Shown here one piece after another: positions 7,298 to 61,583 of a stretch of 64,000 bases of DNA (the stretch's first letter is position 1; each line of letters starts with the position of its first letter). A model generated the notes under the pieces. The model had not been told where the DNA came from and made no database searches. It was given only the letters and a program-made list of their open reading frames with translations. Origin of the DNA: Chrysoperla carnea. Taxonomy: Eukaryota > Arthropoda > Insecta > Neuroptera > Chrysopidae. The stretch spans positions 59,837,501-59,901,500 of the forward strand of contig NC_058341.1 of NCBI RefSeq assembly GCF_905475395.1, given 5' to 3'. The translations under genes were made by a program, and so were the position numbers.

Positions 7298-7401
7298 AAT
7301 TGCGAAAAATTATTATTTTTATATTTGCAATCGCGCAACCAGGGGACATTATGTTTCTAATGTAATAATGGGCGATATCTTTGTATATGCGAATGAGCCT
7401 C

Positions 7402-26547: not shown

Positions 26548-29500
26548 TTAATCTTCACCAAACATTCCCTTAATGTCATTTTCATATAATGCAATTAATG
26601 TCATTACACCAAGACCAGTCATAAGGCCAAGAAATTGTAGTAGACATTGTAATAATGAACCACCTTCTTTTGAATGACTTGATGTTAATTCCGGTATCTG
26701 AAAAAATTATGATAATTTTGATAATACTTCAAATTATATCAACTGATTGAAGAAGAATACAAGAAATAAAAGTGTAGGTTCATATGAGGAATGCCATCAA
26801 ATTGAGTTATGGAATAGATTACATAACACTAGAACATCGTGTGGATAATTATTTTATTTAAGCTAATGATCGACAAATTAATCATATGGACTCGTCTATT
26901 AATCATATGGAAATTATAAATAATGCAGAGTGCTTTAAAGACTATATAGAAAATATTGTGTCTTCAAATGGGTAAGACTACGCTTTACCACACAGAGTGG
27001 TACAAAGAATACAAGTATTTACAAAATTAAAAAAAAAAAAAACCCGACAAAATTTTCGGCTACGGAACCCTAAACTCGCACTTGAAATATAGCTAAGAAC
27101 ACTCTCAAACATTTTAAATTTAAATTACCTTTCAAACAATACCAAATAAATCAAAATCGGCTTATCCCTTTAGGCGCTACGATGCCACAGACACACACAC
27201 ATACCGGTCAAACTTATAACACCCCTTTTTTTAAGTTCGGGGGTTAAATAAGATAGAAGAGAAGGTCGCGTATACATATTCGCGTATACGAATGCAATCG
27301 GTGTGTGGGTCATGTAAACACCACTGTTTTTACAACAAAATCAGTAAATGTTATTACGCTGTTTATACACAGAGCACAATGGCGCAGTGGAAGTGTGCTA
27401 GGTTCATTATAGAAAGGTCTTTAGATCGAAACTATGCTATGTTAACATAATTTTTTTAAACAAAATTATGGAAGTGAACAGTGTTTATAATCGGAGAGCT
27501 GATGATGCAAATTTCATGAAGTGTTTGAGCATAGTATCTACTTAATAGCTTAGCATTTATGCATGTGTTTGTCTGAACCATCGGTGGACATCAGGTACTG
27601 CGCAGAGTGTAAAAAAATATGGCCCAAAAAAAGTGTTTGAATCATAGGCATAACCATGGAGGTTATAAAGAAGGAGAACGATCGCTATGTACTAAAGCAT
27701 TAGCGCACCTGCCCCTGAAAATTTGTAGAATTTATAGTTCATTTTTCATCCACCAGCCGCGCTGTCGTCGGTAAGTAGTATATTAGCGCACAACAGCTCG
27801 CATTTAATGAGACAACTTAGCGATCCCAGCGCCTCACTTATTTTGTCCATATTTTGGGGACAATATTTTCTATTGCGATCGTTCTCCTTCCTTAAAACCT
27901 TCATGCGCATAACATTAATCGAAAGTTTAGGTTATTTTAAATCAAAAATAAATAAGACATTTTTAAAGGGGGCTAAAATTTAAGAAAGCCACACTAAAGT
28001 TGATTTTTTTAAAAGTACAATATAAAATGCTTGAATCACGCTACCACTTAAACAGCGTGTTAATTATATATAATAAAAAATATTTACAAAAAGGCAGACA
28101 CTTTTGCCGGGCTTTAAGTACCCACGATCTCAAGATCATCACATAATCCGTCAATCATATTTGCAATGTGATAAGGCAGTCCATCGACCTCTACTCTATT
28201 CGAAACCACTGCAGCTACCACCAACACCTTGGCATGGAATGCTGTCTTTTCTTCCTTGTGGTTGCCCTCTAACAGCAAACCGCTACAAAAGTGTCTGCCT
28301 TTTAGTAATTATTTTTTATTAATGTAATTAACACGATGTTTAAAGGGTAGCGTGAATCACCTTATACTGTAGCCTTCTTCTCTATTTTATGCTCTTTGGA
28401 GTGGTAGATAAGTCCATTTACCTTAACTACGAAGGGTAGAGATAAGGAGAACTATTTCTGTACATAAAAAAGGGCCATCGAAAAAGAGCAAATTGGTGAC
28501 GCCACGTTAGCAAGTAATATAATTGCTGCTGTAAGTTTTAAAGAAGTGTTAAAAATAGTAAGAGTAAGATAAAGATCCAAAGAACTTGTTAGAAAAGGAT
28601 AGAGAAGTGCATATCTAACACAAAGTAATAAGAATAAGAAAAAGATCTAAACAAGTTATTGGAGAAGGAAAGAGAAGTTCACATCAAACACAAAGTAATA
28701 AGTAAAATAATGATCTAAGCAAAATGTTAGAGAAGGCTAGAGACATATTCATATCATTCTCGCTTGCTACGCTAGGGCTATTTTGGTGGGTTTTGTAATT
28801 GCGTTGAATGTGATAGAGAGGAGAGTTCAGTTACAAAATCGCTTAAGTTTTTACGTTAATAGAATAAAAAATATCAAGTCTGAAATTTAGATTGAATAAA
28901 CTATTAACTGCAAAAGAGATACTCTTCGACATTTGGACTTCGGCTAGACGCAGAATTTTCTAGAAAAAATTATCTTAAAAAAAACTAATATTTTTTAAAG
29001 ATAATTTAACAACTCAATATAAATTAGTTCAATTATTGTGTTGAAAGTATTCCCATCCAGTAATTAAAATTATAAATTTCAATATCAAGATATTTTACCT
29101 ATGTCAACCGTTTTTCATTAAAAATCACTTGTTCAAAATCTTTTCAGATACTTAAGGTTTTTGATCGGATAACATTAGCTATCAAAAAAATCGCACATTT
29201 TAGAAAAAAATTTAATTTTTCGAAATTTCAAACATCTAAATTTCCGATAAAAATATACTAATTGGGATCACATAAGAACGAGGGATCACATAAATTCGAG
29301 TGGTTTTACTTTCCAGTTATTTAATCAAACGTTGAAAACTTTTATCACCCCTTACAGCTTTGTGTCGAAGATTGGAAGAAGGATGAGTTAAGATATCTCT
29401 AACTTTTCTCACCCTTCCAATCCTCGACACAAGGCGGTGGCGAATGATAAAAAATTTTCCGATTTGACCACTTTTCTCAGAGGTATAGCTATTTATAATT

Positions 29501-32500
29501 TTAAGAAAATTAAAATGTACCATTTTTTTATGCAATCGTATAAATATAAATTATTAATTTTAAAGTTTTTAAAACTGAAATCAACCAAACTATACTAGAT
29601 TAAAAAATAAATAAACTTACCATATCAACTAAGGCAATGTAAATAAACATCCCAGCAGCCGCAGCAAATACCCATTCACTGGCAGTATCACTGTGTCCAA
29701 TAGCAACACCCAATAAACATCCAAAGAAGCACAATACTGAGGATAGTAAATTGTAAAAAATTGCTTGTTTGGCACTCATGCCAGCTTTTAACAGTACAGC
29801 AAAATCACCAATTTCATGTGGTAATTCATGACAAAATACTGCCACCGATGTTGAAAATCCGCCAGCAATTCCAGATGCAAATGCAGCACCAATTGCCATA
29901 CCATCTGTAAAATTGTGTAAACCATCGCCCATAATCACCATCCATGCGACAGATGACAGTGAATCGGGTGCAGAATGGACATGACCATGTGCGTGTGAAT
30001 GACCATGATGTTTACTTTCATGTGCCCTAAAAATTATTAAAAACGTGTATTACAATTTTAAATTAATGCTATTTAAGGATTAGCAAATTGGTAAAATATG
30101 AAGAACAAGAGTTGTAGACTGACTTGCACAATTGAAGGAAGCACTCAGGTGAAAAAATATTTTTTTCCTTACAATTTGATATGTATTTTAAAGGAAATGA
30201 AGCAACGGAACTAACCTTGGATTCATCAATCATGAGAGTATAAATACAGTGAATGAACCGGAAAAAGTGTTGACAGTGGAAAAGTTGAGAAATTAGCACT
30301 TATTTTAATGAAACTTTTTTTAACGTGTTTATAGAACCCCAAGAAATAAGCCAACCTAACCTAGACATAGGAAGGCCTATGTATTCCAAATTTTTTTTGA
30401 AATGCTTATTTTGGCTTAATATCTAGTAAGTATTATTGGTCGCTGAATACAAATCTGATGTCACATTACACTAATATTGTGACGTTTTCCGAAAATCATG
30501 CCATTTTAGGCCAAAAATTTCACTTTTTTGGCACAAAAATTTCATAAAAAAACACACACAACTCTCTTTCACAACTCTCAAGTTTTAGCCTAATTTGCTA
30601 CCTCAAGCTAAAACAATAATATTTAAAAATGTTTCAAACAAAAGTTGTTTATTTTTTATAAGGAATGTTTTTTTTAAACTTTTGTTTTATCTCTTACGGA
30701 ATACAAGATGGCGGACAGACAGACGGACAAACGGAAATGGGCTAATTAAGTGATTTTATGAACAGCTATATCAAAATGTTGTTCATTTCATCAATATTTC
30801 TAAGCGTTACAAAATTGAGGCTAAAATTAGTTTAACTTGATATATATTTAACTAGCTGGGAACTACCCGCTTTGCTGGGCAACATCCCCACTTGCACCCC
30901 TCCCTCCACATTTCCTTGCGTTGGATAACAGTTTTGTAATGTACACGTCATGCTCTTTTATTTGATACCCCACTTAGGTATATTTGTAAATATTCGATAT
31001 TTCCTTCCCACTTTCTCGCTACACCTTTCTACCCTCCGAAGGTTAAAAAAATTTCTAAATGTAATTTAAAACATTCTGAGCAAGTTTTGAACTATTAAAA
31101 GCCATAATTGAAAAATATGAATTTTTTATTCATGAACACCCCCGCAACCCCCCTTGTGGGTGGAATTTCGTAAAATCCGTTCTTAGCTGACCTCTACTTG
31201 GCAAAAGGAATATTCCTGCCAAATTTCAATTCTCTAGGTCTTATAGTTTCAGAGATATCGTGATGAGTGACTATCTATCTATATCTATAGAAAGTCTCCT
31301 ATATATATAAGATATACAGGATGAGCCACTTTAATCTATACACCTAAATATCTCGTTTTTTAGTTAATCAAACAGAAGTTTGATGGGGACATCCTGTTCT
31401 GACATCAGATTGAACCCACTTCATCGGATTTCTTTAATAGCCAATTTAGATCCTAAACGTTAAGAGATAAATAACACTTTAAATTAGAAAGTTGATCCTC
31501 ATAAAAAAACTAACAATTTTTGTATAAAACATTTGTTCGAAAAACGTTAGCTTCCGGAGGAAATGCGACTTAAATGTATGTTATTACTGCGTTTAATCGG
31601 AAGAAAATACGCTTAAAGTTTATCGATAACTGTAAGTCAAAGTCATGGACTTAAGCGAATGTCCTCTATTGCTCTTGACGACTTTTGGCTAAAGCTTTTT
31701 TCCGTAGTGTGTTTCCTTTCGATTAAATGCAATAATGGTATATTTTTAAGTTGCATTTCCTCCGAAATCTAACGTTTGTCGAAAACATGTTTAAACAAAA
31801 ATTGTTAGTTTTTTATAAAAATCAACTTTTAATTTAAAGTGTTATTCTATGTTTAGGAATAAATCACAACCTGAAGTCAGAACACGATGTCCCCGTCAAA
31901 CTTTTGTTTAAGTTATTTTTTGATTGGTTAACTACAAAACGAGATATTTAGGTGTATAGATTAAAATGGCCCACTTTTTATATAGGTTATAATTATAATA
32001 ACTAATCACAAACTGTATGAGCAAGCTCCTTATATCTGGCTGAATAACAATCAACCAAAAATTTAATTTTATTGTCTTAACTGTGACTCTAGCAACTTTA
32101 CAATCTAATAACTTACCTTAATATAACAGTGTAACTCTCTTCTTCGCTAACTGGTAAAACATGTCCGCCATGAGATGGTAAATCACCAACTAAAGAATTA
32201 TGAAAATTATTTTCAAACATAATATTTGTTTCTCTATGTGGTGTAGTACCTGTATTATTTGGTATTTCCAACATTGGTAAATCCGATGATAATAATTCAT
32301 TTTGATTTGTTTCAATTGTTTTATTATTATGATTATTTAAATGTGGTTTTTGTTGGAAATTATTTACATCTAACTCTTCATATTCACCTAATGTTGTAAT
32401 TTTTGTATCGTTATGGCCAGATGATTCATTATGGATTGTGTTACTACTTCCACCACTTTTATGTGCTACATTATTGCCACGATTATGATGATCATCTGAA

Positions 32501-35500
32501 ACAAAAAGGAAAGTATTAATTTAAAATTAGAAGAAAGTTTAGTTTATGAAGAATTCACTAAGAACAAATTGCCAAGCAAACTTATTAGTGTTTATATCTT
32601 AAATATCGAATAAAAAAATGAAATTATGAAAAGAAAATGATACAAACATAGTATCTAGTTCAAATATTATTTTAAACACAAAATGCCAGTAAAACCTTCA
32701 ACAAGGTTTTCTAAGCCCTTATTGCAACTTACAATTTTCCTAAAATTTTGAGAAACTTAATTTGGACTGTATTTAACATATTTGTAAAAAAAATTGCCTA
32801 TATGTATTTAAAAACTTTTTGAATAAAAATATTTTCTGTATATACAAAATTTATAGGCCTTGTTGAGGGTAGAGCAAGCGCTAGATAGAGTTGAGTGTGC
32901 AAAAATCGGGGACAGCATTTTGTCAATTGAATTAGGAACAGGAGGAGTTTACAAAAATTGTACCAATGTGGTTTCTGGCAACATCCAGAATATTATTCTA
33001 TAAGCTTTCCTGAACAATAACAATTGACCAAATTCGTTCCTCGATTTTTGAACAATCAACTCTATCTAGCGCCTGCTCCATGGCGTTTTATGGTTAAAAT
33101 AATACTTGAACTATATATTTATATTATTTTCTTTCCATACTTTCATTTTTGTAATCAATTTTGAAGATATAAACAACATCAAAATCCTAAAAAATCGGCG
33201 AATATACATGTGTATGTCGCAGCCAACTAGCTTTCTTAGCCGTCCAATTAACAGCCTATACTTTTTTATTAAACGGCACCGTTGAACTATCGGCCTACAT
33301 GATATTTATCCGCAGCGTCTAATCCAACATTTAAAGAACAGGTTGGCTGATGCTTAGGCTATTCATACAATAGAATTATCATTTGGCAAAAAAAAAGAAG
33401 AAATTTTTGATATCAGAAAATGTTTATTTTCGTAATTTAAAATATAACATTTTTATGTATTAGGCAAATTGGAATTAAATAAATTTTATTTTCTACAACA
33501 TTGTTTATAAAATTTCAAACGATAATTAACGTAGCTAATGATGGAACATTGGATTATCAAAAACTGTCGAAAATTTCTTTTTTGGAAGAAACTTTTCCGA
33601 ATTGAATTTTGTCAAAATTAAAATATCTTCAGTTTTTTTAACCACCTAAAAACAGTTCCAGAAATAGTAACTTTTTGTGGTCAGAAATGGATCGTTTTTA
33701 AGGATTGCAATGGACATTACAGTCTAAATGTATCCCATTTCGATATCTACTACAACTTAAGCCAACATTCACTACCCCGAAAAAAGTATATAGCAATGTT
33801 TCTTTAGGCTAGTAAAACGATGTGGGAAAATTCTGAAAATATTTAATATATTTTTTAAAGTCAGATTATTTTTAAAATTGAATTATTTAAGGATTAAGAA
33901 AATGAAGATTGAAAACTGATTAAAATTACTAAATTGTGGACTTTTAGCTTCGTTTATTTTATCTTTTGTATTGAAAAAAAAAATGTATTATAATTTTAAA
34001 ATTAAATAAAAATTGATGCCTACAAAAACATTTTTTTCGTTAATTATTAGGATTACTTTACTATTTTGCAATAAGTAAACAATACTGATAAAATAATTTT
34101 AAAAAGTGTTACACGGTTATTTCAAGTATTTGCTATGTGTACACATAAAGTTATCGTAACTACAACATAAAATTGTCCGAAAATCGAATTTATTTTATCA
34201 TTTAAAATTTTTAAGATAAAATTTTAAATAGATTCATATATATGCGAAACGAAAATTTTTACAGTTTTTAACTACTTTTTTATTTTTTATTTACACGTAT
34301 AGCACACTTTATAATAAGTCGACTTTGCTTCACTTATAATACAATGTTGGTCCATTTGGGAACTAGGCAATCTTAAAAGTTCAAATTTTGAATGTTCTTT
34401 TAATATTTGAATCCGGAGCACACGTTTTCTCTAAGTATTTCAAAAAAAACTTTAATAATTTTGAGTTAAGACCCAAATAATGAAAAACTTAAAAATGCGA
34501 TTTGTTATGAAAATCGGTATATGGGTATAAAATATTCTAATCAACTTTTTTAATAGTTTTTTTTTTCGATATTCTAACCATCTATGACCCTATGAATATA
34601 ACCCTAAAAGACTAGTTTTTTTATGAAACCATTTCAGAACGTTTTTAAAGTAGACTAAATTTGCTACAATATGAGACTAAAATGGACTTTGTAGACTCAA
34701 TACTTTCCGAGATAAAGGCTTTCAAAATGTATCGACGTAACTTTATACATCAGAGCTAATGTCAAATACGGTAGTTCTGATTTTTAGCAGGCTTGTTTAT
34801 GATGTTGGTCGATGAACGCAACTTTGTCAAAAATCGAAAAAACCTGTGTAAATTTCAGCTTTTTCCAGTTTTTGTCAATTATAACCCTAAAGTGGTAGTT
34901 TTTGAAGTAGACTAAATTTGCTGTAATATGAGACTAGAATGGTCACTGAAGACCCAATAGTTTCCGAGAAAAAGCTGTTCAAAATTCATCATTTTTAATA
35001 ACTTCTCAATCTTTTGCAATATTTCAGACGTCACTCCAACTACTCTAGCGGGAGGTATTTCCACTTACCTCAGACGGAGTGTGCTGGTGTTGTTCAGGGT
35101 CAAAATTCATTCAAAACGACATAATATATTGCAGAAAATTACGAAGTTTGAAAAAATGATAAATTTTGAATGGATTTATCTAGGAAACTATTGTGTCTAC
35201 AGAGAGGATTTAGTCTCATATTGTAACAAATTTAGTCTACTTTAAAAATATTTTGAAAAGGTACTTCAAAAACTACCCGTTTAGCAGCTCGAGGGCACAA
35301 ACTTGGATTATTTATTAGACCAACATCATAAACAAGTCTGCAAAAAATCGGAACTACCGGTTTTGATGCAGACTGCTCCGTACTTTCAAACGACAAGGTT
35401 ACTGTATTATGCACTGTATTAGTAAGAAAGAATATTTTGCAATTCCACCCCTAAGACAAGCAAATGGGACATATGTTTGATTATCCTAGAAATAGGAGTC

Positions 35501-38500
35501 AAGTTTATGTTTAGCGGGCAGACAAAACGGAGGATGGGCTAGGTGTACCACCATCAAAAAAGAGATAAGCGTATACATTAACTCGGTGCATTAGTTTTAT
35601 TTCAGGGAGTTACCATAGTAACGACACACTATTAATATAATTTTATGGATGAAAATGAAAGTCTACACTCTATGGTTTGTAATTTAAATAATTGTTAAAT
35701 TACATTTAAAAAATATTAATAAGAAAAAATAAGAATTTATGGATATTTAGGTAAATATTTTATAAATGTTTTATTTTCTTTTTTACATACGAGGTTTCAA
35801 TACGAATTGTATTTTTACAAATTATTAAATAATATTATAAAGCTTCCAAGTGACTAAGAACGTTTAAAAAAACAGTTAATTTTTCAAATATTATAGATTA
35901 AATAAATTATCGTAAAAATATTTATACGAATTTTGTCGTTAGAGATAACAACGATTTAAATAAGTATTATTATTAGAAATATACATTTTGTTTTATTTCA
36001 TAAGTGGTTTAAATAATATTAAAAAGAATTTGAAGATAACAGCTTATTCAGTAAAAAGTATTAAGTCACTTATTGTAATTTAATGCTTAAAAAAAATTAA
36101 CAAAATATTCATAGTAAAGGCGCTCATACAAACGTTTGCAAATGATTTTAATTAATTCCGACTTAATTTATATTCAAAAACAAGTGAACATAAAAGGTGG
36201 CCGACTTGATTTTTGAAATACTCTGTATAGACAGTGTTGGTTATCATTTATTAATTTATAAATAAAAAATAATAATTAATAAAATCAAAAAACCTGACTC
36301 CGTAAAATAAATACAGAGAAGAAAAACCAAGTCCTGTAGTTTATATAACGATTTTAACAGCTGGGACCCATTTAAATATAGACTGGCTCAAATCTTTCCA
36401 ATAATGAGACCAGGCCTGACTGTTAAAAAAGTTAGAACTAACAATGAGTATGGTACTAATAAAAACTGATTTTTAATAGTACCAGATGGCCAGGTATTCC
36501 AAAAATGTAATTGTAATAAGTCAAAATAGTCAGTAGTCTGTGAATCAGTGTTGCAAAAATAGATTTACTTGTTTTAAAAACCAGCTTTGTTTGCGGATCC
36601 AAATGCCATGGAAGTATAACTTACGTTAACAAATAATATTTTAATTATTTACATGTGTAATTTATTTTAAAGCTACGTTATTTGATCTCATGATTACCAA
36701 ATAACAATATCTTTTATATTTTTTTTGTCAAATGGTCACCCTATTATATGAATGGCCTAAGCATCAGCCAACCAGTTCATTAGTCCAACGGTGCTGTTTA
36801 GTTAAAAGCCTAGGCTGTTAGCTGAACGGCTAGTTAAGCTAGTTGAAAGCAATACATACACTTTTTCGTTTTTATTTACATGAATAAATAACGGACTTGG
36901 CCACATAATAAAGTAAATAGTTCTTTCGAGAATTTGAAGACATTTAACTTAGTTCGACATTTTCATATCAAAAATTTCTTAAAAATGACCTACATTTAAA
37001 TTATTTTTCATATAAAGTGGATATTTGCGCCATCTAGTAGTGGGAATAAAAACGAAAATGTGTATATATTACAAGAATATGTCATTTTGCAATAGGAATG
37101 GATCACTTTTAACAAATAATTTTGTCAATTTTGAATATTATAAAAAATGATACAAAATATCAAAATGGAATCAGCATTTAAAATTGATAATTATGTGTAT
37201 ATTTCTGTGTCAACCTGTACAGTGGCGCGGTGTTTATCAATACCAAAAAAAAAACAATAAGCATTTTTAGTGTTATCAATAAACAAAATAATTGCTTCTA
37301 ATCGGATAGACTTTTTTATTTTAAAATGACCATTTTTTGTTTCGAGCAGTATGCTAAAAAACTGTTCAAGAAAATACCATAATAGTCTGCAGTACAGAGG
37401 GGGGGGTATGGTTTCGTGACTAACACTCTTAGGAAACTTCGTGAGTGGCTTCATTTCAGTGTAACCTACAACGTTTTCATTTGGAAAACTTTGGAAATTG
37501 AGGCGTTTTCAATGTGGAAAAATGGTCACCAAAGTTTTGTCCTAATTTGCACCCTCACGGGTAAACAGTAATGTTTACGAAAAAATTCAAACAAAAGTTT
37601 ATTGCTGTTCTATTTACGAACTTAGCCACACTTTACGTCCTAAGCAGGCTTTAAATTTCAGCTTGATATCTCTTTTCATTTTTGAGTTATCGTATTTACA
37701 GACAGACAACCTGAAATGAACTAATTACGTGATTTTATAAACATTTTTAGTAATCGGCGGCTAGACTTTTAAATATTTGATCCAAACGATGGCAGTTTAA
37801 ATATCATAGATGTGCGGCCAAGCGTAGTTTTAGTGAGTCATTTCAGGAAGGTTGGAAATTTTTTGTGAGCCAATTCCGCGTTTTCAAAGCAAGGGACTTT
37901 GATTTTAATCGAAAAATGTTCCAAAAAAATATATAGTCGATGTCCGCAGCGCTAAATATGTCAATTCTATCTCATCAGGAAACTAATTTCAGAATGGCTG
38001 AAAATCTGCTCACATTAAGAATTAACTCTAAAAATCACATCGTCCGTAATTGTAAATGGCGGAGAAGCGATTTTTAAACTTAACTATTCATGTGAGCAGA
38101 TTTCAGACATTCTGAAAACAGTTTCCTGATGAGACGGAATCGACATATTTAGCACTGAGGACTAGCTAAACCCTCCTCCCACTCTTATTGCTGGCGATCT
38201 CGCATAGACTATATTTTTTTGGGGTATCTGACGATTAAAATCGGTACTATCTTTTCTGTAATCAGTTCAAACTTGAGACAGACGCTAAATGTTTGGCACT
38301 CTATTGGGGCCAGAATCCCCCGCTTTGAGAACGCAAAACAGGCTTGCGATTGAGAACGCGATGCTGACTAACGCCTATGAAATTTTCAGCTTTTCTGAAA
38401 TGACCAAAAACTATGCTTGGCCGCACATCTATCAGTTTATACAATATAGTGCATTTATTTAAAAAAAGAACTTAAAATAATTAAAAAGAGATTACTAAAA

Positions 38501-47782: not shown

Positions 47783-47799
47783 TGTATCAAAATTTTTTA

Positions 47800-50700
47800 A
47801 ATCATTTATAAATATTACAAAACACCACCTAAAATTAATATTTTTATACACTTAATTCATATTCGAGAAAATTTTTTAATTCATTTTAAAAAACGCCAAC
47901 TAAAAATTTATATCAAAACTCTATCATATGCTACTTGTCAAAAAATAATTTAATTAATTAATTAATAATAATTAAAAACACTCACAAAATTGATTAAACT
48001 TCACAAAATTATTTATTAAACTCATCAACTCCTAACTGAACCAGTGCTGTAGAATACAACATTTTTTTTAAAATATGATATTCAAACAACTACTTTTTTT
48101 AATTTTAGAAAACTTGTTAAATTATTTTATTTTGCAATCGACACGTCATTAGCCAACCAAAATCGTTAAAATTATTTATTATTTTTAAGGCATAACACAG
48201 ACCTTCGTAATTAAGGTTAATTATTTCACAAATAAATTCAGTCTCATTCAGACATACGAAGTTTTGTTTGATTTATACTTATTTGTCCATTTAGCAAAAG
48301 CAAGCAAGAGAGAGCGAGCAAAAGAACGCTTCACACATATAACACAAATATAATATATAGATGTCTATAAATATCGATTTTACAGGTATCCAATTTATCT
48401 GTGTAGAAGAAATGCAACGCGGTACCAATTCCATCTATGGACTGAACTCTGTACACCCGACTATACCATTTATATGGAACAGTTACAGGCAAGTATGCAT
48501 TTACGAATTCAACAAAGACTTTGAAGGTTCCGTATACACAGTATTCATAAAAATTGAAAATTAAGTAGGTACATGAAATTGCACAGTCATATTTATACTC
48601 GAGAATCATGTGGTTTTATTTACCCTTACCAAAACTGAAAAATATTACAAATTACTCCGTGTTTGGTTTCCGATCTTAGATCCAAAGGAAATGATTCTGG
48701 TTTTTCCGCATATATATACCGTTTCATTGAAGTTCGGAACGGTTAAACAGGCTCCAGTGAGCTTTCTGTGAGCATAAACAAATTACAAACTTTAAATTCA
48801 ACCATCAGCTTTCTCATTTAAATGTTTAAAGGTGAAACTTGTTCCGTATATGTAATTTGAAACATAGTTCAAGTGATTTTATTTTGTAAGGTCCTTTTCC
48901 CTTCATGCAATTAATTAAAGGTCATTTTCCGTGATTATTTGCATTCATATCATTCTGATTGGCAAATTGATGATAAAAAATTAATTTGCTAGTTTCAAAT
49001 AGATTGTAACCAAAATTTTTTTTCATGTGAGCGGGCCTTAATTAATTCTAATTGAAGATGGGAAGATAAATTTGGGATTTTGAAAATATGGTTTTTCTCA
49101 TTATCTCCACTTTAAACGAAAATATAGTCTTTTATTTTATTTTCTAGTTTAATCGGAAATAAACTTTGATAAAATTTTATAGGTGTTATTTAACAAATAT
49201 TTTGTTTCGAATTTCACTAAAATATTTGTTAAGTAATGCCTTTTGGAGATTCAAACAGGATATTTAAATATACATAATAAATACTAGATACAAAATGCTA
49301 CTTTGCGCAAAACACTGAGCTGAACTCTACTTATTTAAATATGAAATGGAGAGAAAGATGTAAACATTATCTTAGAACATACAATTAAATGATATGAAAA
49401 GAAAATTTCTATTAATTGACTTACGAACTAGAGCTGTGAATGATATAAAATAGATTATATGTTCTATGATTTTTTTTTTGTGTGGAGACAGATGTTTATA
49501 CGTTATACCCTCTGCAACCGCCATTAAACTACCACCTACAGTTTGTTGAAGTCGGGAATAAAGTAAGGAAAAGAAAAAAAAAGTTTTTACCCCTTTTTAA
49601 CCCCGTTAGGCGATGAGTTTCAATAAAATACGAAACACGTCTTCCATCAATTCTGTTAAAGAATGTTTATTCAAAATTTGAGGTAGATTGAACCAAGGAA
49701 TCACATTGTCCCATTCGTATTATAATCTGTCCATATCGCACGCTGTGCACCGTTTATATAGTTACAATCAACAGTCTAGCAAATTCTAGAACTGTCATGT
49801 ATGTTCTATTGCCTATTATATTACATATATATTACATACTTGTATAAGTTTTCTATCTTTGTTTACCTAATATAAAACGATCATGTTTATTTCTTTTTAG
49901 AATTGTCTAGATTACATTTGCTTTTAATATAGCATGTGTGTGAACGGATTATAAACAGTGCAAGTGTTTTCTTTTGTGGATGGCACAGAAAATTAGATAT
50001 AAAATAACGATATATTGTGTTTCAATAGAATTATTTTGTTTATGCATTTAAAAAATAACTTACCTACGTATCAGTTTATCGCATATCATAATTTTGTAAA
50101 TTAAAAAAAAAAAAGAACAAAATATTTTAATTAATAAACAACTATAAATTTATGAAGGAAGTATTTTGAAAAATCAGTTCGGTCCCGTTGTACAGTTTGA
50201 TACCACTCGACACATAAGTATACTTTAGTCGTGGTGGACATAACTTTTAAAGGTCAGACCTATGACTTGCTAATTAAGCAACATACGATGCTATCTAGGA
50301 AATTTATTTTTAATAACTCAGTTAGTAATTTTTTAGTATTACTAACCGAGAAATTCTAAATTTTTAAATCTTAAGTTTAGTTCATAGTCAAGGCACTTTT
50401 TTACTTTTTGATAAAATCAAATTTTACAAGTTTTTTGGATGTCCTCACTTTACATCCTCCAATCCTCACTTGCTTAACCTTTTGCTTATGATAAATATGT
50501 CTATTTCATTATTAAGTGAGAAGCTCCCGATTTGTTATTATAATCAAATTAATTGCAGTCGAGAAATTAAAAGCTTTGTATATTTCTTTCATCCCCTTTT
50601 ATGTCGACGTTTTTATACCACGATTTAGTTGTAAATCTAGCCTGGATCTTTGAAATAATACAAATTGAAGTGTCTATATAATTCCTGAATCGAGTGAGTA

Positions 50701-50940
50701 TCTGTTATCAATTTTTCATCATTTATGTGGAAGTTACCATGCTATATAAATTTCCTACATATAGTTTGATAGACATACACACAAGCATATTTTATTGTAA
50801 ATTGTGTAGGTAACCGTAAGAAAATACAAAATTTTTTTTTTTAATTTTTTGAGGTGAGAATAACAACTTTTTTTTCAGAAAGTTAACGAAGTTTTATTAA
50901 ATACTGATTCTATTTTGTTTGCCAGTTTATATACATTAAA
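47800..50940. other. Upstream of the ZIP gene; no further gene seen
   Basis: This 3.1-kb stretch should include the ZIP promoter and any 5' UTR exon, but no TATA or initiator can be singled out in such AT-rich DNA. The frame starting further upstream at 47851 would add about 23 residues before the signal peptide and is less likely. The 92-codon minus frame at 48331-48609 and 62- to 67-codon frames are unrecognised. Confidence 0.5.
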
Positions 50941-51216
50941 CGCTGCACATAGGACGATTATTAATAATTAGGCGGCCAAAAGTCAATTTTTTAAAAGAAA
51001 AGGTTATCAACCAAAAGTGGCCAAAATAGAAAGAGAAAAACACCAGTAACCAGAATTTACCCCTCCCACCTAAAAAAGATGCACTGTGTGCTTGCACTCG
51101 CAGTTCAAACTTGATCTTCGCTACAACTGTATGACATTGTTCTTAGTTATCTCAATTGACGAAATTAAAGAAAACTAGTTTTTGTATTTTCTATTTGATA
51201 TTTGGCAAGGATTGTG

Positions 51217-51721
51217 ATGGATTCAAGTAATTCAGGTAAGAGTTATTATATTCTAATGTATTTTAAGCGTGTTAACTTCATTTTATGGTATCTGTTCAAT
51301 TTTAAAAGAGGGTATGTTAGAAAAATGTATTTTTTGTTAATTTTCTTGTTCAAACATTATTTAGTTATATTATCGCCTCCTCTCGCCTAATAATTTTTTT
51401 AGTTTTAAATATTTTACATATTTGGGTAGCTAACAACACATTTTTTAGGTGCGGATGGCCGCGGATGGCCGACTTAGAGGATTTTTAAGATTGAAAGTCA
51501 TACGAAAAAAAAATTAATTTTTTCTTTAAAATTTAATAAAGTGCATTTTTTTTACTTTAGGTACCTCTGGCGTAAAAATAGTGACCCGACGTTATCTTTA
51601 CGATAAAATGCAACTGCAAGATTTGCCTAATTTGGATGAAAAACTAAATTATCTAGAAAATTACCTTTTGGACTGTTATGGTGACACATGTGATAATAAA
51701 AACAGTTTGAAACAAAAATAA
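51217..51721 (+). CDS. Small two-exon gene inside the transposon (59 residues)
   Basis: I do not recognise this protein. Exon 1 is 51217-51235 (MDSSNS and one base), then a GTAAGA donor; the intron ends TTTACTTTAG and exon 2 is 51561-51721. They join in frame as ...SGTSGVKIVTRRYLYDKMQL, then DLPNLDEKLNYLENYLLDCY, and a stop. The second half is acidic and predicted helical (heptad-like L/Y spacing). Composition is balanced, unlike random frames around it. The gene is central to the 2-kb CACATAGG element, preceded by about 270 bp of GC-richer leader. It could be the first part of a transposase whose remainder was lost to the insertions right behind it (51787 on), an accessory protein of the element, or a chance frame. 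Both splice sites fitting a 180-base frame argues for a real gene. Confidence 0.5.
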
Positions 51722-51786
51722 GCATATTTAAAAATGTCTATGAAAGAAAAATGGTCGAAAGCTCATTATTTAGTAGTAGCATCCTT

Positions 51787-52174
51787 AAATACGAGTAAGA
51801 CAGAGACTACATCTTCTTATTATTAGAGATACTGAGATAGGTATAAGAGTCATGTACCCGAGCGGACTTGGATAAAGAGACTCACAATAAGTTTTATGAC
51901 ACACAATAAAGCTATAACAATAGTGACTTCGACCTAAAATATCATACTTGCTTTGGCCTATACCTCAGGCACGGATAAGTTGTTTTAGGTCGAAGTCACT
52001 ATTGTTATAACTTTATTATGTGTCATAAGCTTTATTGCGTGTCTTTTTATCCAAGTCCGCATTGCTTATAGAGGAGGAAGTGAGACGGGTATACAACTCT
52101 TCTACCTATTTCAGTTTCTCTAATAGTAATGAGGTAAGTAGAAAAAAATGTTGTCTCTCTGTCTTACTCGTATT
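51787..52174. mobile_element. Palindromic element nested in the 2-kb transposon
   Basis: Left end AATACGAGTAAGACAGAGAC pairs with GTCTCTCTGTCTTACTCGTA near the right end. Inner arms: GACTTGGATAAAGAGAC with its inverted form near 52060, and CAATAGTGACTTCGACCTAA with TTAGGTCGAAGTCACTATTG around 51972-52005. Arms cover nearly the whole element except a centre of about 50 bp. Confidence 0.85.
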
Positions 52175-52319
52175 TTAGGTTGTCGTTGGTTAGGTTATCG
52201 CTGTCCTACCCGTATTTTAAGTAAGGAGGCCGAGTTATACATTATTTTGAAATACATGCAATAAAAATTGATATAATTACTTACATAATAAAAAATATGG
52301 TAATACTAGCTGTTACGCG

Positions 52320-52795
52320 CCAGCTTTGCGTGGCGTAAAATATACCCGCTTTGCTGGGCAACATCCCCACTTGCACCCCTCCCTCCACATTTCCTCGCGT
52401 TGGATAACATTTTTGTAATGTACACGTCATGCTCTTTTATTTGATACCCCACTTAGGTATATTTGTAAATATTCGATATTTCCTTCCCACTTTCTCGCTA
52501 CACCTTTCTACCCTCCGAAGGTTAAAAAAATTTCTAAATGTAATTTAAAACATTCTGACCAAGTTTTGAACTATTAAAAGCCATAATTTAAAAATATGAA
52601 TTTTTTATTCATGAACACCCTCGCAACCCCCCTTGTGGGTGAAATTTTGTAAAATCCGTTCTTAGCTGACCTCTACTTGGCAAAAGGAATATTCCTGCCA
52701 AATTTCAAGTCTCTAGGTCTTATAGTTCCAGAGATATCGTGATGAGTGACTATCTATCTATATAGATCTATAGAAAGTCTCCTATATATTTATAG
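52320..52795 (+). repeat. Repeat family C, copy 2
   Basis: From ACCCGCTTTGCTGGGCAACA (52344) to GACTATCTATCTATATAGAT (52745) this matches 30865-31290 with few differences. The head differs slightly (CTTTGCGTGGCGTAAAATAT). It is inserted in the 2-kb transposon, so it is younger than that element. Confidence 0.85.
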
Positions 52796-52999
52796 ATTCT
52801 TACTTTTTGTTGAATTATTTGCGTTTTTGTTCAGTAAAACATCATAATTATACAAAGAATAATATGAAATGATAAAATAAAGGTAAAAAAAGCAAAATAC
52901 ACTGTAAAATAATTTTGGCCACCTAAATCGTCCAAATCGTCCTATGTGCGCTGATTCCATTTTGCCAGTTTGTGAATGGTAAATAGTGATAAAAATACT

Positions 53000-54255
53000 T
53001 TGTCTTAGTGATAAATAGGTTGATATATTTTCGTACCATCATATACGTAAATTATTAATCCTATTCGATGTCTAATATTCTGGGTGTAATATCCAATAGA
53101 AAAGTGAAAATACAGTTTCCATTTAAGTATTATTTTATCTTTATTGAATTCGCGACCTAGTTCAGACTTTTCTGTTGTTTGAGCTATTTCGAAAACGATT
53201 CTAATGATATTTACAAAAAAAATATATCCTTGTCGTTTTCGACTAATGAAATTGTTTTTTTTTTCGACCGAAAGTATGGTGTTTCTTCAAATATCATTGA
53301 CAAGATGTGTAGCAGTGACAAACAATTAAAAGGAACAGTTTACAAGAACAAAAATGTAAATAACTCAATTGCTAAGGTGTTTTTTTGAAGGTAGGGAATC
53401 CTAAAACCAGAAATACCTGTAAGGTGTCACGAATAAACAAATATATCTCTATGATTAATCGTTTATTTCATCAAACGATTAATCATATAATATAGAAATA
53501 CAAATTCAGATCACGATTCACGATTAATAATTTTTCATAATATTCTTAAAGTTATCTGACTTATCCGTCTTATCTTATTTGTAAATCCATTCCATCTATG
53601 AATATAAAATATAAATACAGAAGCATACGGAAGTAAAATACAATGTTGCCACGTAATTTAAAAAGAAAAAAAATTATACTCGTGAAAGATTTTTACATAA
53701 AAATTGACATAAATCAATTTTTTTGAATAAATAGAGCAAAGTCAAATTTTTTTCTGTTATAAGCTTTTTTCTTAATTTTAAATAACTTATCTAATCGTTG
53801 TGAAGTTTTTTAGTGTTTTGTAAAATTGAGTTTATGATTTGGTAACATTGGATTCAAGTGACAATTAACAAAGAATGCCGTGTATATATTTCGTTAAAAT
53901 GTTAAATTAAGTTTATTTATTTGCTAATATGTTAACTTTATTATATAAATTAATTATAATTATTAAATAGATATAACTAATTTGAAATAATCCTTTTTAC
54001 TGATCCTACATCCTTGCCCTAATTCCCTCCAAGTTAATGTTTGTTTTTGTTTTGTCCTTTTAACCGGTGAAATTATCCTAAAAGCAATTGACAAGATTCA
54101 TATTAATTTATGATAAACTTAAGTTTTAATTTAGCTTTAACTATTGTTTGATGACATTATAAAAATCATACTACTCAAATTTTGATAGCTGAGGTAATAA
54201 TCATTAAAAATTTTAGAAATTAAGTAGAAATCATAATTATTTTTTTTTAGTTTCT
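53000..54255. other. Region between the transposon and the MIF4G gene
   Basis: No separate gene is supported. A palindromic stretch, TATGATTAATCGTTT with AAACGATTAATCATATA, lies at about 53450-53488. A TTTTTTTTTAG acceptor at 54241-54250 followed by TTTCTTATAATGGC shows that the MIF4G gene has at least one 5' UTR exon upstream, which must lie in this stretch or to its left, but I cannot place it. Confidence 0.5.
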
Positions 54256-54259
54256 TATA

Positions 54260-57200
54260 ATGGCTGGTAGAGGCAGAGGCGGTTTTAAACCAAAATTTCA
54301 AAATGATTTATTAACACAATTATCAAATATACAAGGGCCACGATCAGGCTCGAATAATTTTGAAGATGCACCGGAAACATCTGCTCCAGTGCATGCCAAT
54401 GACTCGAAATATGAAAGTTTAATAAATGCAATATTTAAATTAAAAGCTGACGATGATGGTATTTTATTAAATCAAAAATTACAGTATATCACCGAAGTAT
54501 GGCAGAAAGTTTGCGAAACAGAAGAAGCTGTTGAGTAAGTTTGCTTTGATCTTCATTGTCATTTATTTGATGATTTTTAGAGTTCCTTAACAAAAAATTG
54601 TATATAGGAAGAATACTTAGTTTTTCTGTAAATAGTCGCATTGTTTTTTTTTGTTTTTTTTTTTATTACTATATTTCGTTTTCATGATAACAGAGATATT
54701 TAAAAAAACCGCAAAAAATGTTCTAAAACAATATTATGGAGGTGAAGAGCGTTTATGACTGGACCCAATCAATAGAGCCATTATTCGCTTTTCCAAAGAT
54801 TATAGAGTAGAGAAGAAGCAGGGATATAACTTGTAAGTGACATCTGGAGTCTGTGGCGATCAACTATTAAGTTTGTAGGCCTTTGCGGATATGACTATTA
54901 AGTTTAACTACTTTGCAGAGGCGACTATTATCTATTAAGTTTAAAAGCCTTACTTGGTAGATGCGCTGAAACTCGTATACTTCGATTTTACATTAGCTCA
55001 TATGGACTGCTTTTCATGGTACCTCTACCCTATACTCTTTGCTCTTTTCATGGTACAGAGCTTTAATTTGTAGTATTTCATAGTATTAAATATGATATGT
55101 GAATAAATAAATTTAAGCACTTTAATTTTCGCTAAACCACTTTATTTTATTTTATAATGCGACATGTTTCGGATATTACTCTATATTCAACTAAGATTAT
55201 GTATACGACGAATCTTTTGTACATAATCTTAGTTGAATATGGAGTAATATCCGAAACATGTCGCATTATAAAATATAATAAAGTGGTTAAGCAATAATTA
55301 AAGTGTTTAAATTTATTCACATAACATGTTTAATCGTATACTCTTTTTTAATTTTGCCAGTAATGGAGACCTTCTCCTTCTGTCTTATGCTCTTTGGCTA
55401 CCGGTACACAGTAAATTTGCCTATCTTTTGAGTAATGAATATAGTCACAGTGAGAATTTGACCATCTAATATCTATGGTTCTAAAATTAAATATCTAGCT
55501 ATGTTCACGATTTTAGATAATTATACCAGCTCTTTAAAATTTTACTGAACCTTATAAGTGTTGAAATTTGTTCACACAAATTTTTTTATTATTTTTTTTG
55601 AACAATTTAGTATGCTTTGACTGTTATTAATTTTCATTTCATTGTAATCATAGCACGCGACAAGTGAAGGTCTCGTTATGAAATACAGTTCAGAATTTTT
55701 GAAATTAATTTTTCTTAGACAGGCATTGGACGTAATGCATCGTCGTGGATTATATGATGAAGCATTTGCCTCACAACTCGCAAATATGATGTCATCGTTG
55801 TCGTTCAACTCTCTAGAAATAAATAATGTTAAAATTAGGAATCAATTTATTGCAAAACTTCAGCACGATTTTGAGAGTAAGTATAATTTCTTAGAATTAT
55901 GAAAAAAATCACGATTTCTAGGATTATGAAAATAACTTATGATGGAGGGATAACGGTTTTCTGGGTGATAAATTGTGATGAACTGGGCAAGATATATCGA
56001 AAAGTATAAAGGTTTGAGGTATGCCTTATTTTTCGAGCTATTAAAAGCCTTTATGGTCTTTTTTATGTGAATAGTTTCTCCAAGTTAGTTATTTTAAGTC
56101 AAATGTTTTTTCATTCATTTTTTTTTTGGGTTTTCATCCCTCGAAAAAATTACATAAAATGTAAAAAATAAAATTGATAAGTTTTTAAAGGAATATTTAT
56201 AAAAAATTTTACGTCTTAATTTCGTCATACTTCAACAGAATTTAAGGAAATTTCTAGGCTTAATAAATTTTAATCATCTCTATTTTAATTGACTTTAACA
56301 TTGGAATTTGTGGAATTTTTGATTTTGCTGTCCTTGAATCCGATGTCAGATTACACGAATTCTGTCACACAGATATACCGAAAATCGTGCCATTTTTGAT
56401 CAGTAATTCCATTTTTTGGCACTAAAACTTTTATTGTCCAAACTGTGCTCTGAGGAGTCTTCTTGTTGACTGATTACATACCCGATGTCAGATTACACGA
56501 ATTCTATCACGTATACCGAAAATTGTACAGTTTTTGGCACAAAAATGGAAAAATAAAAAAGTATTTATCGTCCAAACTGTGCATTAAAGGGTATCTTTGG
56601 TGACTGATTACGAATCCAATGTCAGATGACACGGATTCTGTCACGCTTTCCGAAAATTGAATAAAAAAATAAAAAAGTTAGTTTTCCGATACTTGAAAAA
56701 ACATGTCCATTATCCGACTTCGAATTTCTTAATTTCAGATTACTGAATATGATTTAAAATTTGCAATTTTTTTCTGGCTTAATTCAATTTGATTATAAAA
56801 CATAATAATAGGGGGCAAATGTGACAATCTGATTCTCTAGGGAAAATTTTTATACCCTGTATAATGAGATATATATCAAGGTATACTAAGTTTAGACCCA
56901 AGTTTGTAACGATTTAAAATATTGAACCTACCGGTTATCTATCCGTCTGTCTGTCACGATAACTCAAAAATGAAAAGAGATACAAGTTGAAATTTTTATA
57001 GCGTATTCAGGACTAAATAAGTGAGTTGAGTTCGTAAATGAGCAACATAGGGCAATTGGACCGTTAGAGATAGAACAAAAGTTTAAATATAAAAGTGTTC
57101 CTAATAGAAAAGTAAACAACTTATGCTTGAATATTTTTTTATAAATATGTACCACTGTTTACCCGTGAGAGCGCAAATTCGATCAAAACTTTGGTGACCA

Positions 57201-60200
57201 TTTTCTCCAAAACTATAAAAGATAGGGAGTTGAAAATTTTCAAGTAGCTTCAATCAACTAGTAGTCTTGTGGGACATTCTCGAAAAATGAAAAAAATTCT
57301 AGAAAATACTTCTTAAATAAAAATGCTTTTTTTAAATTTCAATCGAAAAACAATTAAATGGCGATTGAAAGGCAACCATAATTGTGTTAGTTGTTTTAAA
57401 TTCTTCTAATTTATAAAAAATAATGCAAGAACTGACACTTTCTGTACAGGATATTTCAACAATTAACCCAGTCAATTGTTTTTTTTCTACTTGTTTATAA
57501 TAATTTCAATGGTCCTGACGTAATTTATCTCCCTTTTAATCTTTCTGCAGAAATTAAGTAATTGTATTGAATAAAATTTGAAAAATTTTTTATTCTATCT
57601 TTTGTATGTAAAATTATAAGATATTTTATAGATTTTTTTCTTTGTAATAGATTGCAAAGCGTTGCAGTCAAAAAGTGCACTTGCTTTTCGGAATGCCGTC
57701 AGAATGTTAGGTGAATTTTATCATAAAGCCAGATTCACTTCTGGTAAGCCAATAAAACTTTTTGCTACACCTCTTAAGACTTATTTGGAAATGCTATTAG
57801 AAGCAGCACAAGAAGAAGATTTAGAATTATTTACCACTCAGGTTAGTATTAAAATTACAGGGTGAGAAACCTGAACCTTTTTTAAATTTTTTACTCGTAT
57901 CATCGTATTTTTATTCAAATTTTTTTTTTGCTCCGGGTGGGTGAACAATATTTTTAAACTTTCGATGATCAAAAATACTTTTGATGCAATTTATCTAATA
58001 AGTGTTTCCAAAAACGAATTTTTCATAATAAAATAGTTAACAATTATTGTTCCTTGATCCCGGCTAAAAAATTTTTTAAATATAACTTTTCAGGATCAGG
58101 TGGCTAAGTTTTTTGGGAAAATTGCACATCCTTATTCTCTAAGCGTTAAAAACAGCGTATTCGAACGCCTACATCCCAAAAAATCGTTTCTTTTAAAAAC
58201 ATTCATGCATTTCCTAAATTTCAAACATTTGGATCTCCAAGAAAAATATTCTTATCAGGATCATCTACAATTCATTCGAATGCTTGTAGTTTTTGAATAC
58301 GAAGGCGAAATTTATCACGTTCAACCGTTTTGAGTCAAGGGTTCACTCTCCCATTGAGAATTACCAATGCTCCACAATCGATTCAAAACTTTAAAGATGG
58401 AATTCGTAAAAGTTAGCGAGGACCTACAGCCGCAAATGTGTGAATTGGTCATGGAAAATTTCATGAAAAGGATACGGTGCTGCAATATAGCCGTGGCGGC
58501 CATTTATCTGATATCGTTTTCCATTATTAATGACATATCCCCCTCCTCTTTACAATGAAATACACATGCATTTTCTCTTAAAAATACTCGTTTTTTTAAA
58601 ATCAAAATGAAAAATCTTATTGGAAAACCCGTTATAAGAAATGAAGGAAAATATTTTTTGCAATTTGGTGCGTTTGTTTCGAAACAAAATATACAATAAG
58701 TAAGAGCCTTACTATTTTTTAAAAACCTTAAAGATGGTTCAAAAACGATCTATTTCCGAATCACAAACGATATTGACAATTGTAAACAAATGTCAATAAT
58801 ACGGTAGTTGCCTGATGTCGGATTTGCCATATTACGCATAAAAATGTAAAACTAGACTTGATACCATGACCAAATTCGAAAGGGAAATTAAAATTGATTA
58901 AAAAACGAAGAAGTTATAAGCATTCAAAGATTGTTGTCCATCTCTTTTTAGCAAAACAGAGTTTTATATTTATTTTATTTATTTATATATTTATGTATGT
59001 CATTGTCCGATATCTCCGTGGTGATATCGGACAATGACGTCACTAACTTAAATAGAGATTGATAAATTTAGTCAACATGAAAATTATAATTTCAGTTATA
59101 CATAAATGGAAATGGTTTACGTTCGAATTTGCCACAAGATTTAACTGAAATAATGCTACGAGTTCGTACTCTACTTGCATCAAACGATAAATTATCAAAG
59201 ACATCTAAATGCTGGTTATTGTTAGCGATAGACGTCGACAACCATGATTTTGGATTACTTCCAACGGAATTACAAAAATTTTACGTCACATACTTAGGCG
59301 AAAAAGTAATTAAACAATTTGAACGAATTAATACCGAGTTAACAATTCAAATTCACAAAAATGATTTTCTTGATAAAATCATTAGCAACGTAACTGTACT
59401 AAAAGTGGATAATAGTGGAACACCTACACAAAAATGGGATGGTAACATGTCAAAAGTGGGTGGTGGAGATTCGTATGTAACTATTGATCAATCAAACACA
59501 TTAATCATCAAAAATCAAGAAACGAGTTTCTCAAAAGCAGGATACGAAAATCATGATGGTCCAAAACCAAGTTATGGTCGTGAAAAATATTTAGTAAAAG
59601 CACAAACGTATAAAAAAATATCACCGGATAATGGTTAGTATCATGAAGTCAGGTTTTTACCACGGAACTGGGCTTTAATAGACGGAGTTTGATAATTCAT
59701 TTTTTTTTTTGCATTTATATCTTATAAAATGACCATTTTTTATTAACACTGAAATGTGAGGGGTAAAATATGGCTTACAAATATCTGACATAAAATTTTA
59801 CTTGAATATTCCAAATTAAATTTTCGTTATACGTGATAGAAAAAAGATAATTTGAATCCGAAAGATATTTTTGATATATGGTGGGGATTCCTTGGTGATT
59901 TTAACTTCAAAATTTGGGATGCTTTGGGGAAACGTAGCGTCATCTAGAATTTAAAAAGTAAAGAGGTAAAAGTTATTGTAAATTAGATTTTCTGCCAAAA
60001 GTCTTTATAAAATTTTGCGATTTATCGTTTATTTAAAAATTTATATTTTCGCCTAGAAAATAGGGGATTAAGTTTTTTTCCTCATTTTTTTCCGCTGCTT
60101 TTTTCTAAGAATTTGGTAGAATGTTTTTCATAGCATTTAGATGAGACTTGGTTACTAATCTTTTGTTTAAATATTATGTCTGTTGGACGCATAGTTCTGT

Positions 60201-60844
60201 AATTGGACTTTTTCAAACTTAGTGAAATTGATACATCAGTATTGGCAGGGAGCATAGTAGGTGGAGTTCAAGTATTGTGGAAAACCTTCGTTTAGTTAAT
60301 GACTGAAAAATATGAAACAAATTTTGTTTGTACATGATTGCCAACGTCTACCTCGCATGAAACCTCTCATTTCGATGACAACTAAAAGATAATTTACATA
60401 ATTGTAATAATTTTAAAAACAATTATCCATAATCCGTCTAATACAGCCAAATTATAAAGTTTGGCATTTTTTATTTATAATTTATCTCAATTAGGTGCAA
60501 CTATAAATAATTGGGATGGTGCTTCGCCAAATGGTACTAAACGAGATAATAATGCTCCAAGACCGATATTAGGTGTTGGAGTTCGACTACAAAAATCTGA
60601 AAATAAACGACAAGATGATAATTGGCGAGAACGTACTGGAAATAATGATGCAGGTGCAGGTGGTGATTGGAGAGAGACTAAATCCGATTTAAATCCAGCA
60701 GCTGCTGGATGGGAACACAAATCAAAATCGGGTGGCGGGTCTGGTACATCCGGTTGGGGAAATGATAATCCTAAAGAATCGTCTGGTAAAAAATCTTGGA
60801 GCCAACATGATGATCGAACAGAGACTGATTATACAAACTCCTAA
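54260..60844 (+). CDS. MIF4G-domain translation factor, complete, five coding exons
   Basis: MIF4G domains are HEAT-like helical folds of eIF4G, CTIF, PAIP1 and MIF4GD that bind translation factors on mRNA. Exons: 54260-54534, 55665-55876, 57651-57841, 59096-59633, 60495-60844; 1566 bases, 521 residues. The protein opens MAGRGRGGFKPKF (RGG-like), then residues about 50-270 form the helical domain, with FLRQALDVMHRRGLYDEAFA, SALAFRNAVRMLGEFYHKAR and LPQDLTEIMLRVRTLLASN. The end is low complexity, Gly/Trp/Asn rich, with repeated NWDG, DWRE, GWEH and GWGN. The second exon's acceptor is uncertain: TAG at 55653 would break the frame, AAG at 55664 keeps it. A 5' UTR intron ends at 54250. AATAAA lies near 60936. 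Likely relatives are CTIF/PAIP1-like MIF4G proteins; orthology is not settled. Confidence 0.88.
55095..55325. mobile_element. Palindromic MITE, about 230 bp
   Basis: TATGTGAATAAATAAATTTA near 55095 and AACCACTTTATTTTATTTTA, GCGACATGTTTCGGATATTA pair with TAATATCCGAAACATGTCGC and TAATAAAGTGGTTAAG and the final TTTAAATTTATTCACATA. The loop is about 55195-55225 (GTATACGACGAATC). It sits in intron 1 of the MIF4G gene. Confidence 0.85.
56335..56690 (+). repeat. Tandem array of about 140-bp units, three copies
   Basis: CGATGTCAGATTACACGAAT starts at 56341 and 56483, and CAATGTCAGATGACACGGAT at 56617, periods 142 and 134. Each unit continues with TCTGTCAC/TCTATCAC, ACCGAAAAT-GT and TTTTTGGCACAAAA-type stretches. 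A single related fragment lies at 30440-30545. It lies in intron 2 of the MIF4G gene. Confidence 0.85.
56848..57300 (+). repeat. Repeat family A, copy 7
   Basis: TATACCCTGTATAATGAGAT, AAGTTTAGACCCAAGTTTGT, CTGTCTGTCACGATAACTCA, GTAAATGAGCAACATAGGGC, ACTGTTTACCCGTGAGAGCG and AAAAGATAGGGAGTTGAAAA in the family order. It is one of the more complete copies. Confidence 0.8.
58090..58560 (+). pseudogene. Decayed gypsy-type reverse transcriptase fragment
   Basis: The plus frame 58100-58333 contains FKHLDLQEKYSYQDHLQFIR, then VVFEYEGEIYHVQPF and a stop. This follows the order of the Ty3/gypsy reverse transcriptase core: (F)S-x-LDL-x-x-GY-x-Q, F-x-x-x-G-x-Y-x-x-x-x-PFGL. After the stop, other frames give SEDLQPQMCELVM (as in VHSEDLxxH regions). 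The glycine of the GY motif and the FGL are lost, and stops interrupt, so it is dead. It lies in intron 3 of the MIF4G gene, sense direction. The match is by motif order, not alignment. Confidence 0.55.
58800..59036. repeat. Dispersed block shared with 19745-19870, and a perfect hairpin
   Basis: TAAAAATGTAAAACTAGACT, TTGATACCATGA and AAAATTGATTAAAAAACGAA recur at about 19790-19865. At 59001-59014 CATTGTCCGATATC is the exact reverse complement of 59023-59036, with an 8-base loop TCCGTGGT. Both lie in intron 3 of the MIF4G gene. Confidence 0.75.
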
Positions 60845-61258
60845 AATAATATTGTACTTAAAATTTATTTTTAAATACTCACGAATTATCCGAATTGGAT
60901 TATTACCTTAATTTAACCATTTTTTTTTCTTTCGTAAAATAAAATAGAAATAAATTCAATATACAATGAAGTGTATTTTGTGTATTTATTTTTTTTTAAA
61001 TTAGTGTCTCTAGATTATCATGAGAGTAATATTAACGATAGCGAAATTAAAAAAATTTTTTAAATCATTGTTTTTTATTATTAATTTCTTCAAAAGAAAA
61101 ATTTTTGAACAAGAAGAGTTTGTACAATAAATAAATGGAAAAAATGAACATTTAAGGTAATAATTTTGTAAACTATTGACAAATGTTCTAAATATAAGAA
61201 ACAAAAATTCATTTTAATGAATAATAACAATAAAAATTACGTAGTTTAATTATGTATC

Positions 61259-61583
61259 CATGAAGGTTCTAAAGAAGGAGAACGATCGCTACGTGTTAAA
61301 GCATTAGCGCGTCTGTCCCTGAAAATTTGTAGAATTACTAGTTCATTTTTCAGCCACCAGCCGCGCTGTCATCAAGAAGTAGTATCTGCGAAGTTAGCTG
61401 TTTATGAGTACAAGTAGATGAAGTTAGTTGCATAATGTACAAATTGATATACCATTTCAAATTAGCGCACAACAGCCCGCTTTTATTGATACTACTTAGC
61501 GGTTGCAGCGCCTCACTTATTTTATCCATATATCGGGGACAATATTTTCTATAGCGATCGTTCTCCTTCTTATAACCTTCATG
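61259..61583. mobile_element. P-element-type MITE, copy 2 (325 bp), perfect 8-bp target duplication
   Basis: Starts CATGAAGGTTCTAAAGAAGG and ends with CTTCTTATAACCTTCATG. Flanked by TATGTATC at 61251-61258 and 61584-61591, an exact 8-bp duplication. Relative to 27655-27905 it carries an extra segment of about 74 bp after the CAAGAAGTAGTAT stretch, before ATTAGCGCACAACAGC. It lies between the MIF4G gene and the next gene. Confidence 0.9.

Follow-up and report, generated by a model that had tools for sequence, protein, structure and literature searches.

P-superfamily miniature elements of Chrysoperla carnea that tile on the ends of a long THAP-type P element

Two short elements in a 64,000-nucleotide stretch of the Chrysoperla carnea genome (NC_058341.1, positions 59,837,501 to 59,901,500; hereafter, the window) are almost certainly non-autonomous miniature inverted-repeat transposable elements (MITEs) of the P superfamily, which arose by internal deletion of a THAP-type P element of about 5.75 kb and were presumably amplified by a P transposase acting in trans. 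They belong to size classes of 251 and 325 bp, here called M251 and M325. As proposed in an earlier note on this DNA, the elements occupy positions 27655-27905 and 61259-61583 and have related interiors, being alignable throughout except that the 27655 copy lacks 75 alignment columns. Both carry CATG, the tetranucleotide with which P elements begin, at either terminus, and the inverted ends, put at about 33 bp in that note, were found to measure 33 or 32 bp: the 33-bp sequence CATGRAGGTTMTAAAGAAGGAGAACGATCGCTA fits the left ends of both elements, and the 61259 copy has a right end 1 base shorter. A 17-base core of these ends occurs 4 times in the window with up to 3 mismatches, against 0.03 occurrences expected, and none of 100 shuffles of the window reached this count. 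The 8-bp target duplications are also as reported, exact for the 61259 copy and matching at 7 of 8 bases for the 27655 copy. The components of the two elements are listed below, with the bases of the long parent element on which they tile.

27655..27905, plus strand: M251 copy, a 251-bp P-type MITE, tiling on parent bases 1-127 and 5628-5750
27647..27654, plus strand: left target duplication of the M251 copy, GGCATAAC
27906..27913, plus strand: right target duplication of the M251 copy, CGCATAAC, 7 of 8 bases as on the left
27655..27687, plus strand: left terminal inverted repeat of the M251 copy
27873..27905, minus strand: right terminal inverted repeat of the M251 copy
61259..61583, plus strand: M325 copy, a 325-bp P-type MITE, tiling on parent bases 1-181 and 5611-5750
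61251..61258, plus strand: left target duplication of the M325 copy, TATGTATC
61584..61591, plus strand: right target duplication of the M325 copy, TATGTATC, exact
61259..61291, plus strand: left terminal inverted repeat of the M325 copy, 33 bp
61552..61583, minus strand: right terminal inverted repeat of the M325 copy, 32 bp
61444..61445: deletion junction of the M325 copy, 2 bases common to the left-derived and right-derived halves

The assignment to the P superfamily, made in the earlier note from the ends and duplications, is borne out by a long element with related ends at C3:2500904-2506653 (5,750 bp, minus strand), which is flanked by an exact 8-bp duplication, ATACAAAC. Its interior, searched piecewise, contains the domains of a P transposase in transposase order. 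The N-terminal RNase H domain (PF21787, E=2.3e-29) and THAP (PF05485, E=1.1e-5) score above the Pfam cut-offs, and part of the GTP-binding domain (PF21788, E=9.8e-4), the helix-turn-helix (HTH) domain (PF12017, E=0.0096) and the C-terminal RNase H domain (PF21789, E=0.0066) score below them. The THAP match corresponds to the second half of the domain; the first half is suggested by eye only, and by eye the domain seems to be split over two frames, perhaps by an intron. Among solved structures, the RNase H piece has a single match within E=0.1, to P transposase 6p5a (and 6pe2), at E=7.5e-11 over 60 residues. Past CATG(A), the parent ends differ from those of the canonical Drosophila P element. 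Parts of the element recur elsewhere: the coding stretch at C1:137753902-137755139 (85% identity) and C1:16221391-16221743 (75%), and the right end, including its inner part, over 596 bp at C1:14850989-14851586 (97%); L126 (at least 2.7 kb from C1:14850989-14851586) showed no similarity to the C3 element.

The derivation of the miniatures can be followed base by base. The M325 consensus is fully covered by the ends of the C3 element, its positions 1-187 corresponding to parent bases 1-181 (87% identity) and 186-325 to 5611-5750 (94%), with 2 bases common at the junction. In the window, 61259-61445 and 61444-61583 are 85.6% and 91.4% identical to the C3 ends, and 27655-27781 and 27782-27905 are 87.4% and 86.3% identical. 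At least 4 size classes, of about 440, 325, 305 and 251 bp, are present in the genome. In the largest of them (L064:1065-1495), the parent's initial ~182 bases, aligned with a gap, are joined to its last 258, so that this class holds parent bases 5493-5750, more of the right end than M325 has. Among 40 scored matches to the parent right end, the similarity breaks off at base 257-258 in 37 and at base 286 in 1, and the remaining 2, one of which is the C3 element itself, span all 596 bases. This end-to-end tiling directly supports an origin by deletion, and it is the co-occurrence of a parent and several size classes in one genome that makes such an origin readable from sequence. By the tiling, the miniatures descend from the family of the C3 element. 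In the most probable course of events, the starting point was a P element some 5.75 kb long with a THAP-type transposase gene, which lost its interior, likely during repair of an excision gap; deletions would then have proceeded from about 440 to 325 bp and from there to the 305- and 251-bp classes, while P transposase supplied in trans would have used the CATG ends and amplified the copies by cut-and-paste transposition, leaving 8-bp duplications.

The family shows the hallmarks of MITEs: its copies are short, non-coding, numerous and uniform in size, and they have inverted ends. A first-look search with the 325-bp copy returned 945 candidate places in the 559-Mb genome, and the best 40 of these, once scored, were all 97-100% identical across 322 or more of the 325 bases; searches with family sequences gave 877-945 such first-look places each. 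Exact matches to the end pattern number 507 genome-wide (368 to the 33-bp and 139 to the 32-bp variant), and the reversed control patterns have none for either variant. Sampled M325 copies (n=29) lie on average 0.68% from their consensus, a value that does not give the age of the family because the copies sampled are those most like the window copy. The earlier note had called for confirmation of the 8-bp duplications at scale, and this was obtained: among the 28 two-ended M325 copies, the duplication is perfect in 19 and matches at 7 of 8 bases in 6, a perfect 9-bp duplication flanks 2 (L014 and L019), and 1 has none. These figures come from 30 fetched loci, 2 of which were left unscored owing to one altered end, and L009 and L023, which have identical flanks, are a single site entered twice. 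The M305 class, exactly 305 bp long in 7 of 7 copies paired by coordinates among the matches listed, has perfect 8-bp duplications in 5 of 6 copies (one computed, L129; L130-L139 judged by eye), C1:54705300 being without one.

Not every end found on C1 has an exact partner; about 50 such ends were counted by eye among the matches listed. When 40 of these were followed for 238 bases, 34 proved to be MITE throughout and 6 diverged. For 4 of the 6 (L092 and L112 being left out), extension by 4.6-7.1 kb revealed no facing second end, and since they have none of their own these 4 ends look truncated. The unpaired ends led to no long element with both ends, and far-apart end pairs on C1 (L063, L064 and L066), considered as candidate long elements, turned out to be clusters of MITEs. 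Another locus, L065 (C1:3209810-3210758), holds an M325 copy whose 8-bp duplication is perfect and which is interrupted at position 190-191 by 422 bp of inserted DNA; this insert begins with CAGTGCAACC and, by eye, has pogo/Tigger-like ends. The idea that L065 is a deletion intermediate was discarded, the insert having ends of its own.

Both in a set of 40 single ends and in a two-ended set of 24 insertions (L007, L014, L017, L019, L020 and L023 of the 30 excluded), the insertion sites favor A at position -2 (24 of the 40 single ends), G at position 1 (21), T at position 2 (28) and A at position 7 (29). Position 8 is mostly C or T, and T is enriched at position 11 in the two-ended set. Palindromic pairing inside the sites is about what the composition of the columns predicts. 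This preference agrees with the target motif of the Drosophila P element, and hAT elements likewise favor GT....AC targets. Together with the 8-bp length of the duplications, which is equally hAT-like, the GT....AC preference could therefore suggest hAT MITEs moved by a hAT transposase. We regard this as extremely improbable, given that the single long element recovered with these ends encodes P-transposase domains and that the ends begin with CATGA, without the G typically found at position 5 of hAT ends. No hAT domain was found in the searched pieces of the C3 element, and no search was aimed at hAT transposases. The C3 element could also be envisioned not as the parent but as an old MITE that received a 5.4-kb insertion bearing a P transposase gene, and the L065 copy, with its 422-bp insert at nearly the same place, illustrates that insertions of this kind occur. 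The structure of the C3 element argues in the other direction: the overlap at the junction is just 2 bases, self-comparison of the element lists no inverted repeat joining both breakpoints, and the gene extends from the left end to the right end. Furthermore, the ~440-bp class contains parent bases 5493-5750, which reach beyond the M325 content, and the 97% match at C1:14850989-14851586 covers the 596-bp right end together with its inner part, making the insertion scenario very unlikely.

The parent was sought among the P-type genes of the genome, in which PF21787 matches 65 places and PF21788 matches 35. In 30 of the 65 PF21787 loci, fetched with 1.5-kb flanks (L031-L060), no MITE ends were found beyond 3 matches of the core over 14-16 bases within 3 edits (L041, L044 and L051), which were taken as chance. 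Reading was next carried further on the 3' side of 15 P-type loci (2 of them also on the 5' side), including C6:12857326 from outside the 30; the related end that led to the C3 element, with 4 mismatches, was met at one of these, C3:2503973. Two other P-type families were rejected as parents. In a recently multiplied P-like transposase repeat present at C1:35876794, C5:14279706, C5:74541074 and relatives (L052-L060), three places of which (L056, L057 and L058) are identical over 3198 bp, the end core has only 2 poor matches (up to 4 edits, in the 10 kb surrounding one copy of L056-L058), and this 10 kb did not reveal the ends of the repeat itself. The second family, TAAG-P, has different ends. 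It comprises a 4.3-kb P-type element at C3:8759630-8763927 (L121+L045+L119) and a second copy on C5 (L122+L046+L120), with a 679-amino-acid open frame matching PF21787 at E=4.9e-27, inverted ends of 155 bp that start with TAAG instead of CATG, perfect 8-bp duplications (GAATGTCC and GTACCAGA) and 99.4-99.7% identity between the copies in the stretches compared.

Several points weigh against derivation of the miniatures from a P element such as the one on C3. Over the stretches read, mainly on the 3' side, 14 of the 15 extended P-type loci are without these ends, as is C1:35876794 over 10 kb, and the C3 element is the only long element recovered with both ends. Its domains are spread over several frames, and the gaps between them could be introns or damage. 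The C3 copy is not the immediate source of M325, because its ends are only 87-94% like the M325 consensus. The GT....AC pattern does not discriminate, since hAT elements also fit it, and mobilization in trans by a P transposase is an interpretation of the ends, the duplications and the parent sequence.

The M305 class adds a further aspect to the origin of the miniatures from the P element. Over the outer 140 bp it matches the C3 element at 98.6% on one side and 97.1% on the other, and its deletion junction is, by eye, the same as that of M325. The conflict between ends that are 97-99% parent-like and a junction of the M325 type, M325 itself being 87-94% parent-like, suggests an exchange of ends. 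If one deletion founded the classes, the M305 ends may have been renewed from the parent, e.g., by template switching in gap repair, a tentative proposal to which we give somewhat less than even weight and which draws on one full M305 sequence plus the places and identities of the others. Such an exchange, if it occurs, would let P-type MITEs escape the loss of recognition while the ends of the parent drift, and the apparent renewal is open to test by comparing further copies.

The earlier note had considered P-type MITEs to be far less often described than hAT or mariner ones, a remark that needs correcting: 10 families from Anopheles gambiae, with 8-bp duplications, were already published in 2006 (PMC1562414), including AgaP2-P12, AgaP4, AgaP8, AgaP12, AgaP13 and AgaP15 MITE. 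Our searches of the open-licence literature listed no other work devoted to P-type MITEs. The Anopheles elements measure 205-2450 bp and are present at 5-310 copies per family (PMC1562414); these numbers are not directly comparable with our 507, which counts exact ends, normally two per element, or with the 877-945 unverified first-look places per search. Like the Chrysoperla elements, they are short and non-coding, with P ends, perfect 8-bp duplications and THAP-encoding P relatives in the same genome, but their interiors do not resemble the masters to a significant degree, and where they came from was termed controversial (PMC1562414), whereas the 325- and 251-bp copies of Chrysoperla are tiled end to end by their parent. 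Hence, P-type MITEs as such are already known, and what differs here is an interior wholly derived from the parent, a feature that the Anopheles study did not find; the source of the interiors, left open there (PMC1562414), becomes traceable in Chrysoperla. The Har-P element of Drosophila, an internally deleted P element of ~630 bp (~130 bp from the left and ~500 bp from the right) that is mobilized by P transposase, similarly keeps both ends (PMC6917496). Unlike Har-P, a single class near 630 bp (PMC6917496), the Chrysoperla family comprises at least 4 classes of about 251-440 bp in many copies, with end sequences diverged between the classes. The Drosophila melanogaster P element has 31-bp inverted repeats, 8-bp duplications and a transposase with THAP, HTH, RNase H and GTP-binding domains; the Chrysoperla elements share the ~30-bp repeats, the duplication length and the domain set, and their parent on C3 is 5.75 kb long rather than 2.9 kb (PMC7776569).

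The window also contains what the earlier note described as a P-transposase relic and a THAP gene that could have mobilized the two MITEs. These are probably parts of one degraded P-type gene at 2843-8524 on the minus strand, which matches THAP (E=3e-10), the GTP-binding domain (E=6.6e-29) and, below the cut-off, the C-terminal RNase H domain (E=4.9e-4). None of the 65 PF21787 matches in the genome falls inside the window, and therefore the catalytic N-terminal part of this gene appears to be lost or unrecognizable. The gene belongs to another P family, being only 33% identical to the C3 element over 39 amino acids (E=0.002), and a window-wide search with the 17-base core found no MITE ends near it; for both reasons it is unlikely to have mobilized the two MITEs. 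Its coiled-coil-like stretch holds a 165-bp tandem duplication (7640-7972, 97%). Elsewhere in the window, a foldback-like element of ~1.3 kb occupies 16408-17709, with inverted arms of ~280 bp that are 97% alike.

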